Shown: piece by piece, positions 6,292 to 9,735 of the stretch
How positions within the stretch are numbered: position 1 is the first letter of the stretch
Layout: each line of letters opens with the position of its first letter
Source: Nocardia sp. BMG111209
GTDB taxonomy: Bacteria > Actinomycetota > Actinomycetes > Mycobacteriales > Mycobacteriaceae
DNA length: 64,000 nucleotides
Reading direction: 5' to 3'
NCBI RefSeq assembly: GCF_000381925.1
Contig: NZ_KB907307.1
Location: 3,410,001 to 3,474,000 of the forward strand
Notes under the pieces: generated by a model
Told to the model about the DNA's origin: nothing
Seen by the model: the letters and a program-made list of their open reading frames with translations, nothing else
Databases searched by the model: none
Translations under genes and position numbers: made by a program

Positions 6292-7335
6292 ATGCCACCA
6301 CAGGCCTACGACCGCGACAAGGCCCTCGAACTGGCGCTCGCCCAGGTCGAGAAGAGCTTCGGCAAGGGCGCGGTGATGCGCCTCGGCGAGGAGGCGCGCC
6401 AGCCCATCTCGGTGATCCCCACCGGCTCCATCGCATTGGATGTGGCGCTCGGCATCGGCGGCCTGCCGCGCGGCCGCATCGTCGAGATCTACGGTCCGGA
6501 ATCCTCGGGTAAGACCACCGTCGCCCTGCACGCGGTCGCCAATGCCCAGGCCAACGGCGGCGTCGCGGCCTTCATCGACGCCGAGCACGCGCTCGACCCC
6601 GACTATGCCGCCAAACTCGGCGTCGACACCGACGCCCTGCTGGTCTCCCAGCCCGACACCGGTGAGCAGGCCCTCGAGATCGCCGACATGCTGATCCGTT
6701 CCGGCGCGCTCGACATCATCGTCATCGACTCGGTGGCCGCCCTGGTCCCCCGCGCCGAGATCGAGGGCGAGATGGGCGACAGCCACGTCGGCCTCCAGGC
6801 CCGCCTCATGAGCCAGGCGCTCCGCAAGATCACCAGCGCCCTGAACAATTCGGGCACCACCGCCATCTTCATCAACCAGCTGCGCGAGAAGATCGGCGTC
6901 ATGTTCGGCTCGCCCGAGACCACCACCGGCGGTAAGGCACTGAAGTTCTACGCCTCGGTGCGCTTGGACGTGCGCCGCATCGAGACCCTCAAGGACGGCA
7001 CCGACGCGGTCGGCAACCGCACCCGGGTCAAGGTCGTCAAGAACAAGGTGAGCCCGCCGTTCAAGCAGGCCGAGTTCGACATCCTGTACGGGTTCGGCAT
7101 CTCCAAGGAGGGCTCGATCATCGATATGGGTGTCGAGCACGGATTCATCCGGAAGTCCGGCTCCTGGTACACCTACGAGGGCGACCAGCTCGGCCAGGGC
7201 AAGGAAAACGCACGAAAGTTCCTGCTGGAGAACACCGACGTGCGCGACGAGGTCGAGAAGAAGATCAAGGAGAAGCTCGGTATCGGTGCGGATGTCACCG
7301 CAGACGCGGGCGTGGAGGCGCCCGTCGACTTCTAG
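6292..7335 (+). CDS. recA: Recombinase RecA
   Basis: This is the DNA-strand-exchange ATPase and LexA coprotease, 347 residues, full length and without an intein (some mycobacterial RecA proteins have one). Walker A (GPESSGKT) is at 68-75, the Walker B region is [15 protein letters not shown], and loop 1/loop 2 regions ([37 protein letters not shown]) are intact. AAAAGGGG precedes the ATG. It is followed three bases later by recX. Control is dual: a LexA box and a PafBC-type promoter. Confidence 0.98.
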
Positions 7336-7338
7336 CCG

Positions 7339-9735
7339 ATGCCGGACCGAGAGGCGCCGGGGCCGACCCCCCTCCAGGGCCCCGACGCAACTCGTCTCGA
7401 CGCGGTCGAGCGGCTGCGCCGGCAGATCGAGCAATCGGAATCCGCCGGCGCCCGCTCGACCGGGGCCGAAGAGCAACCTCGCCCGAAGCGAATCCGCTCC
7501 ACCCACCGCGCGAGGCGCAAATCCCCCGGAGACCCGAATCCCGAACACCCCCAAGGCATCTGGCGCTCCGACGACGGCCCCCTCACACCCTCACCCACGG
7601 AAACCATTCCCCCACACGACGAATGGCAATCCGAAGCACCACACCAACCCGAACCATGGTCCGTAGAGGCATTTCGCCGGGCCGCGGCGGCCCGACAGTC
7701 CGAGCAGACCCCGCCCCCGGAGCCATTCTCACCCGAGCCGATTCGAACGAGCCCGACGACGCAGACGAACGAGTCCGCCGAGCCGGCCCGTAACCCCGGA
7801 ATCGGCTTACAAGCCCACATATCTCGGCCACCCGAGCACAATCGGCGACCCGAGCCCTATCGACGGTTCGATATCGACGGGCAGAACGAAACCGCGCGAC
7901 ACCCGGACACCGACCCGCAGCCGCAGACCACATATCCCTCGATCAATCACCACACGGACGCAGCAGGACAGCCGAAGATCGAGTTGCCCGCCGAATCCCA
8001 TCGATCGATGGCACCGCACACCGAGACCATTCCACCGCCTGAGCCTCCTCAACAGGCCGAGGTAACGCTGCCACCGAAGGCAGACCGGCAGAGTGAGTTG
8101 CCGCAGTCCCCAGGGACGGTTCAGCAGGCGGAACTGGCCCGACTGAACGAAGCGATTCGAAAGATCGAAGCGGCCCGGCCGAACCGATCGAGTGCAACGA
8201 CCCGGTCGAGCAAGTCCGATCAGCGCGATGAGACTGTCCGCTCGCGAAAGGTCGGCCGGCAGGACAACCCGACCCGGCCGCCATCTGAAGCCACCCGCCA
8301 GAGTAAGACAGTTGGATCACCCGAGGCCGACCAGCACGGCGAACCGACGCACCGGCGAAGCGAGGCCACCCAGTCGCAGGGGACCAGCCGGACGGACGAG
8401 ATACACGGGTATGCGGACGACGGTGGCTGGGGCGAGTCGGATCGAGCGACGGATGCTGCTGGGACGGGGCATACCGATCGGATCGAGTCGGACGAGCGGA
8501 TGGGACGGTCCGGTGGCGAGAAGCGCCGGGGCAAGGATGGACGCGGCGGGCGGCGGCGAGGTAACGCGGGTGGTCCCGGGGAGAGCAAGCCGGGTGGCGG
8601 TACCGACGCGCAGGCGAAGGAGGTCTGCCTGCGGCTGCTCACCGACCGGGCGCGGAGCCGGGCGGAACTCGCGAAGAAGTTGGCGGACAAGGGATTCACA
8701 CTCGAGGTTGCCGACCGCGTTCTGAATCGGCTCGCCGAGGTCGGCCTCATCAATGATGCCGCGTTCGCCGAACAGTGGGTCCATTCCCGGCACACCTATT
8801 CCGGTATCGGGAAGAAAGCTCTCGTGCAGGAACTGCGCCGCAAGGGAGTGGCCGATACGGACGCAGAGGCCGCGTTGACGGCCATCACCGCCGACGACGA
8901 ATACGACCGTGCGATCGACCTCGTCCGCGTCAAACTGCGTACCCAGCCGGATTCTCTGGACCGCGACAAGACCATCCGCCGACTCGTCTCGATGTTGATG
9001 CGGCGCGGCTACAACCAGTCCACCGCATACGCTGCCGTCACCATCGAATTGCCCGCTGTTGCACGGCATTTCGGCGAGACCGAGACCAGCGGTCGCACTG
9101 GCACTGGCACTGGCACTGGCACTGGCACTGGCACTGAGGCTATGGCCGATGCCGATGCCGATACCGGTCTCGATGCCGGTCCACCGGGACGCAAAAGCTC
9201 CGGCCGGGTGGAGAAGATCAGCGACGACGCTGCTGTCGAACTGGTGCAACGCAAATTGCGGACGCTCTCGCCGGATCTGCCGAACGATACTGTCGTGCGC
9301 CGGTTGGTCGGCATGCTGGCCCGGCGGGGCTACAACCAGTCCGCCGCGTATTCGCTCGTGAAAGCCGAACTGCAGCAAGCTCGTACCGAGCAGGACACCG
9401 AGGGCGTGCACACCGGCAGTGAGCACCCATCGGCGTCTCGACCGTCGCTGCGTCGGCCGGAAGCCCAGCGCGACAGAACAATCAGCCGATCCGCCTCTGC
9501 CGAAGAAGACGACGAGAATTCGGATGCCGCCGGTGACGAGGAGCGCGAACGTGCCGTCGAGCTGGTACGCAAGAAGATCCGGACGATGTCCGCCGACCTG
9601 CGACGGGACAAGGCCGTCGCACAATTGGTCGGCCTGCTCGCCCGGCGCGGCATCTCTTCCGGCACCGCGTATTCCGTGGTGTTCGACGAACTGAATCGCC
9701 GGGGCGAGAATCCCGGCGACCACTCCACCGATTGA
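7339..9735 (+). CDS. recX: RecX-type recombination regulator with long N-terminal extension and triplicated C-terminal module
   Basis: RecX binds RecA filaments and blocks strand exchange. Usual RecX has about 150-200 residues with three three-helix modules; this product has 798. Residues 1-425 are rich in Pro, Glu, Arg, Thr and Gln with no fold visible. Modules 1 and 2 are near 426-510. The third module appears three times: about 519-571, 629-678 and 733-785, each with a (R/K)LV(S/G)(M/L)L(M/A)RRG(Y/I) core. The first linker holds a (Thr-Gly)6 run coded by a hexanucleotide repeat. The ATG lies three bases after recA with no good ribosome site, so translation may be coupled, or start internally; an internal start would shorten the extension but not remove the extra modules. 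Confidence 0.85.
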   Translation: MPDREAPGPTPLQGPDATRLDAVERLRRQIEQSESAGARSTGAEEQPRPKRIRSTHRARRKSPGDPNPEHPQGIWRSDDGPLTPSPTETIPPHDEWQSEAPHQPEPWSVEAFRRAAAARQSEQTPPPEPFSPEPIRTSPTTQTNESAEPARNPGIGLQAHISRPPEHNRRPEPYRRFDIDGQNETARHPDTDPQPQTTYPSINHHTDAAGQPKIELPAESHRSMAPHTETIPPPEPPQQAEVTLPPKADRQSELPQSPGTVQQAELARLNEAIRKIEAARPNRSSATTRSSKSDQRDETVRSRKVGRQDNPTRPPSEATRQSKTVGSPEADQHGEPTHRRSEATQSQGTSRTDEIHGYADDGGWGESDRATDAAGTGHTDRIESDERMGRSGGEKRRGKDGRGGRRRGNAGGPGESKPGGGTDAQAKEVCLRLLTDRARSRAELAKKLADKGFTLEVADRVLNRLAEVGLINDAAFAEQWVHSRHTYSGIGKKALVQELRRKGVADTDAEAALTAITADDEYDRAIDLVRVKLRTQPDSLDRDKTIRRLVSMLMRRGYNQSTAYAAVTIELPAVARHFGETETSGRTGTGTGTGTGTGTEAMADADADTGLDAGPPGRKSSGRVEKISDDAAVELVQRKLRTLSPDLPNDTVVRRLVGMLARRGYNQSAAYSLVKAELQQARTEQDTEGVHTGSEHPSASRPSLRRPEAQRDRTISRSASAEEDDENSDAAGDEERERAVELVRKKIRTMSADLRRDKAVAQLVGLLARRGISSGTAYSVVFDELNRRGENPGDHSTD
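9097..9136 (+). repeat. Hexanucleotide tandem repeat inside recX
   Basis: Six perfect ACTGGC units run from 9097 to 9132, followed by a partial ACTG. They encode alternating Thr-Gly in the linker between RecX module copies. Because the unit is two codons, gain or loss of copies keeps the frame. Confidence 0.95.

Follow-up and report, generated by a model that had tools for sequence, protein, structure and literature searches.

RecX of Escherichia coli is composed of three tandem three-helix motifs and, unlike the protein described here, has no extra modules or linkers (crystal structure 3c1d, which we take to be E. coli RecX). The single-module RecX proteins of the same order, found in Rhodococcus, Prescottella and other Nocardia, resemble the protein described here in their HTH1-HTH2-HTH3 body and in having recX beside recA, but they have one HTH3 and no tethered modules. 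In mycobacteria, a recX gene adjoining recA is common, though not universal. According to work cited in PMC9252578 and PMC4231760, RecX occupies the RecA groove where monomers meet, and its effect on the filament is to slow or reverse it.

An extra HTH3 has a precedent in the Lactobacillaceae (Firmicutes), whose RecX is 263-267 aa long and has two HTH3 stretches in 5 of the 5 proteins scanned. HTH2 is separated from the best HTH3 stretch by approximately 62 residues, and because these must hold the other HTH3, there would be no room for a long linker. The window protein, in contrast, has two linkers of approximately 50 residues, mostly with pLDDT<50 (the window is the whole stretch of 64,000 nucleotides that was analysed, from Nocardia sp. 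BMG111209). The Firmicutes-type layout, with the extra HTH3 close behind the first and no long linker, is not that of the window RecX, and our genus HMM missed both of the 2 Lactobacillaceae proteins tested with it. In PMC3527212, the C-terminus of Firmicutes RecX is likened to helices 2-3 of E. coli R3.

A preliminary description of this DNA held that standard RecX has one C-terminal module, which is correct for the actinobacterial genomes searched and incorrect for the Lactobacillaceae proteins scanned. It also knew of no description of the layout. No title on tethered extra HTH3 modules was among the literature matches listed (which included the best 15 of 101 and the best 12 of 242, with most subscription papers outside this scope); the second HTH3 of the Lactobacillaceae and the Firmicutes C-terminus that resembles part of R3 nevertheless qualify that statement. 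The function suggested by the sequence of the tethered layout is as yet a proposal.

Organization of the window RecX

The recX ATG of the window is three bases past the recA stop on the same strand (Table 1). The encoded protein has single RecX_HTH1 and RecX_HTH2 stretches followed by three of RecX_HTH3, all above the Pfam cut-offs. It scores 311.5 bits against NCBIfam NF001064, 'recombination regulator RecX', for which the cut-off is 217, and has the RecX fold; where the standard layout ends in a single C-terminal HTH3, this protein has three.

Table 1. Features of the recA-recX region, in window positions.
Feature	Position	Strand	Basis
recA, 347 aa, upstream partner gene	6292..7335	+	Pfam RecA and RecA_C; sequence
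recX, multi-module, 798 aa	7339..9735	+	ORF, translation, Pfam, NCBIfam NF001064
N-terminal low-complexity extension, residues 1-423	7339..8607	+	Translation; alignment with relatives
HTH1, residues 426-465	8614..8733	+	PF21982
HTH2, residues 472-513	8752..8877	+	PF02631
R1, docked HTH3 module, residues 519-571; R534 (column R18), T568 (column 52)	8893..9051	+	PF21981, AlphaFold2
Linker 1, acidic (net charge -3), mostly disordered	9052..9222	+	pLDDT<50 over most
GCACTG repeats in linker 1, seven perfect copies	9095..9136		TRF
R2, tethered HTH3 module, residues 629-678; R641, K675	9223..9372	+	Pfam, AlphaFold2
Linker 2, acidic (net charge -5), mostly disordered	9373..9534	+	pLDDT<50 over most
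R3, tethered HTH3 module, residues 733-785; R748, F782	9535..9693	+	Pfam, AlphaFold2
Short C-terminal tail	9694..9732	+	Translation; pLDDT<50 for residues 791-798

R1, R2 and R3 share one reading frame. Segments 516-575, 626-682 and 730-790 align pairwise with 26-29 identities over 57-60 positions and scores of 109-119; for each pair, none of 1000 shuffles scored above 33. Together with the three Pfam stretches, this bears out the claim that the third RecX module is present in three copies. Structure prediction, chosen beforehand as a possible refutation, gave more than one folded HTH3. In the AlphaFold2 model, R2 and R3 are each a separate three-helix bundle, and the linkers between the bundles are disordered, mostly with pLDDT<50, in agreement with the low-complexity linkers and separately folding modules that had been described. 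Neither Foldseek nor VIA returned a clear relative when R2 or R3 was searched by itself, and three-helix bundles are so widespread that these searches say no more than that. Domain matches and the structural model thus confirm a predicted protein composed of a RecX body, HTH1-HTH2-R1, and two extra HTH3 modules on what appear to be flexible tethers.

Linkers of multi-module RecX are 11 to 104 residues long (median 50), and the two-module RecX of N. thailandica (L205) has one of approximately 180 residues. All 90 of 90 modules have a positive net charge, and 48 of 53 linkers have a negative one. The (GCACTG)x7 tract suggests that linker 1 of the window may have grown by slippage at these repeats. 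The tract is a likely slippage site that would alter linker length in frame.

The N-terminal extension of the window protein starts like several three-module relatives (RLDAVERLRRQ-like, by alignment and translation), and a pattern for this motif was matched by 29 of 96 Nocardia RecX. Across Nocardia, the position of the RecX core in the open frame ranges from 39 to 541; the median is 154 in one-module, 195 in two-module and 332 in three-module proteins. Long N-terminal RecX parts are present in other actinobacteria too.

Distribution of the extra modules

An HTH3 match was found in 96 of 98 Nocardia genomes (G015 and G055 are without one). RecX has one module in 59 of these, two in 21 and three in 16, and a second HMM gave the same counts; they cover 95 fetched regions and the window, and many named loci are the same genomes as the G-numbered set, so the two HMM counts are not independent. 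Multi-module RecX is thus recurrent in Nocardia, in 37 of 96 proteins. Three modules are found, for example, in N. nova, N. africana, N. veterana, N. vermiculata and N. aurantia; two in N. wallacei, N. mexicana and N. vaccinii; and one in N. brasiliensis, N. abscessus and N. otitidiscaviarum. The recX frame starts -400 to +100 bases from the end of the recA frame, on the same strand, in 94 of the 95 Nocardia loci with a recA match, window included. Two of these 95 loci have an insert in recA. That of L031:2793-4967 (G001) is in frame after approximately residue 207 and contains a LAGLIDADG domain and, below the cut-off, an intein splicing match, and that of L124 (G096) is similar to it by reading.

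Outside Nocardia, a Pfam HTH3 match (E 0.001) was found in 215 of 244 genomes of the order, exactly one each. A draw of 296 genomes from the phylum gave 179 with a match outside Nocardia, of which only G375 had two; some genomes are common to the two surveys, and weak copies may escape the Pfam model. G375 was rejected as a two-HTH3 genome because its matches are on two contigs, one being a 23-position piece at a contig end. Each of 18 named non-Nocardia loci has one HTH3, and with the genus HMM, these and 20 unnamed loci have at most one above 7 bits each. Long open reading frames of other actinobacteria (L219-L223, 590-794 aa) were ruled out as further multi-module RecX, since they have long N-terminal parts and one HTH3 apiece. 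By these searches, the extra HTH3 modules are a genus trait of Nocardia within its order.

Selection on the extra modules

Comparison of 11 close pairs gave dN/dS values of 0.12-0.57 for R2, 0.02-0.44 for R1 and 0-0.28 for the core; those for R3 (6 pairs) were 0.09-0.34 and those for the linkers 0.10 (11 codons) to 1.70, with overlapping ranges between regions and some dS values near saturation. In 17 of 17 comparisons, the linker has a lower identity than the module on each side of it. From this difference and from dN/dS, R2 and R3 are under purifying selection and very likely made and kept. Pooled GC by codon position is 0.73/0.48/0.82 for R2 and R3 vs 0.73/0.47/0.83 for the core. Among the 96 Nocardia loci, no module above 20 bits was found in another frame of the recX locus. 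A promoter scan found no promoter. An origin of the modules as a frame or low-complexity artefact is rejected by their being in frame and under purifying selection.

A residue pair that changes modules

Each of the 59 single-module proteins has arginine at column 18 of HTH3. Of the 37 multi-module proteins, 14 have it in R1 and all 37 in at least one module. Lysine occupies column 52 in 54 of 59 single-module proteins, in R1 of 11 of 37 multi-module proteins and in some module of 36. When K or R is accepted at column 52, 58 of 59 single-module proteins have the R18 + K/R52 pair, which was picked after inspection of all columns. Of the 37 multi-module proteins, 1 has the pair in R1 and 35 have it in a tethered module. 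Exactly one module is complete in 33 of the 37, two in 2 and none in 2. The last module carries the full pair in 32 of these proteins. R2 does so in the lineage to which the window belongs: in the window, columns 18/52 are R/T in R1, R/K in R2 and R/F in R3, leaving only R2 complete.

The pattern recurs in held-out proteins, which are new sequence related to the 96 (P0001, proteins with core identity of at least 99.9% to one of the 96 and those below 75% are omitted, and one non-Nocardia single-module protein, L183, is included). The pair is kept in 13 of 13 single-module proteins, and R1 is broken in 24 of 26 multi-module proteins. A complete tethered module is present in 22 of these 26, with one complete module in 15, two in 7 and none in 4; L205 has no module with both residues. 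Among more distant actinobacteria, some single-module RecX carry G, P or A at column 18.

By parsimony, column 18 of R1 has 0 changes among single-module rows and 14 among multi-module rows, and R1 columns E5, R8, R32, R39, G41, A47 and V51 have none in either group. The R1 change rate per unit tree length is 91.0 in multi-module rows vs 62.8 in single-module rows; R1 is thus faster overall, and simple relaxation may account for some of the pair loss. In the last module, E5 is retained by 14 of 37 and R8 by 13 of 37 multi-module proteins, which weakens the idea that E5 and R8 serve R1 docking.

Module number varies from 1 to 3 among near relatives in the Nocardia tree. A quick tree of recA and RecX core (96 rows) has a mixed clade of 35, with 28 multi-module and 7 single-module members, and a separate clade of 9, all two-module, each with a support of 100. 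A careful tree gives 5 single/multi changes (bootstrap 4-6), of which 3 are forced by starred branches. Forcing all multi-module rows together gave an AU p of 0.030, by which a single origin is weakly rejected, the bootstrap being not fully settled. The independent single/multi contrasts, 3 on starred branches and 5 on the best tree, are too few for significance. A module tree with 55 columns, built from 148 of 149 modules (R2 of L119, at 15.6 bits, was left out), did not settle the branching. Counting changes does not distinguish module gain from loss; because all seven single-module members of the mixed clade keep R18 and K52, we infer that repeated gain is favoured.

At RecA columns 343, 345, 88, 268 and 276, single-module genomes as a whole differ from multi-module ones (uncorrected p under 1e-6); 343 and 345, in the numbering of the window RecA, are residues of the C-terminal tail. 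No RecA column separates the 7 single-module from 26 multi-module members inside the mixed clade, so the overall differences likely reflect shared descent, and a RecA change matching module number was not upheld there.

A proposed body with a reaching arm

In our judgement, the chances are about even that the R18 + K/R52 contact has shifted from docked R1 to a tethered module, which would make RecX a body with a reaching arm. On this reading, based on the alignments and the structural model, HTH3 was copied; HTH1-HTH2-R1 would be the usual RecX body, with R2 and R3 trailing on disordered acidic linkers. A pair that can sit on a module with a free tether is unlikely to serve internal packing and is more likely an outward contact. 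R18 and K/R52 would form an intermolecular HTH3 contact; in the filament groove, its most likely partner would be a RecA protomer or DNA. After a second HTH3 arose, R1 would have become mainly structural and the contact would have passed to the mobile arm. Judging by the sequences, this passage from rigid body to mobile arm probably took place several times. While the body binds the filament as usual, the arm may reach a neighbouring site, slowing release or widening the footprint. For a disordered linker of 50 residues, the reach would be a few nanometres, or about three RecA protomers. The longer reach that the preliminary description foresaw is thus physically plausible; RecA binding by the extra modules is a proposal.

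Because RecX in the RecA groove slows or reverses the filament (work cited in PMC9252578 and PMC4231760), we suggest that R18 and K/R52 make contact with RecA or DNA. No residue-level RecX-on-RecA structure was found in a PDB sequence search (E up to 1), which gave four RecX sequences with titles naming RecX alone, and the titles from the literature search included no cryo-EM structure of RecX on RecA.

In the nearest alternative, the target of the tethered modules would be DNA (ssDNA or dsDNA) instead of RecA, and they would act as an arm that keeps RecX near the filament. It overlaps the reaching-arm reading, which allows RecA or DNA. Basic modules on acidic linkers are in keeping with it, as is the basic nature of the shifted residues, but HTH3 belongs to the RecX body, which EM places in the RecA groove (work cited in PMC9252578), and we hold this alternative to be unlikely.

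Were the three modules equivalent grips, as first supposed, each HTH3 would bind a separate RecA protomer, giving a wider span and stronger inhibition. Many fold and basic positions are shared by the modules: all 37 multi-module proteins keep L37, R39, G41 and A47 both in R1 and in the last module. R18 is in all three window modules, and the median linker is long enough for reaching other protomers. The absence of the pair from R1 in 36 of 37 proteins and the single complete module in most of them argue against equivalence, as does a copy number that varies among near relatives. As a description of these proteins, equivalent grips are improbable, and that part of the earlier claim is not supported.

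Neutral duplication with complementary decay makes no appeal to any gain: an extra HTH3 would be fixed by drift, the copies would lose different parts and the whole would function as a one-module RecX. It accounts for the complementary retention of residues and fits the general relaxation of R1, the simple repeats in the linker and the weak middle modules of some proteins: P0016 (28.6 bits), P0017 (15.2 bits) and L119 (15.6 bits), the last being apparently one contig with N. alni L145 (17.4 bits). We consider it quite doubtful, in view of a layout that occurs in more than one clade, a pair found in the tethered module of nearly all multi-module proteins and extra modules that are under purifying selection. 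An annotation artefact, in which the C-terminal half is untranslated or a shorter product is made, draws on GC-rich DNA with long chance ORFs, on the opposite strand of the window included, but is scarcely credible against purifying selection on in-frame modules in 37 of 96 proteins, their absence from other frames and their core-like codon-position GC.

Significance for RecX

On the reaching-arm reading, with somewhat less than even confidence, a partner-binding site formed by R18 and K/R52 would have moved onto a tethered module in several Nocardia lineages, separating structural and contact roles. This would reveal the binding site of all close RecX, and the arm could hold a second place on the RecA filament. 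The natural duplications would then be a separation-of-function experiment that points to positions R18 and K/R52. Moreover, the series of one-, two- and three-module proteins within one genus is material for asking if reach and avidity tune RecA control.
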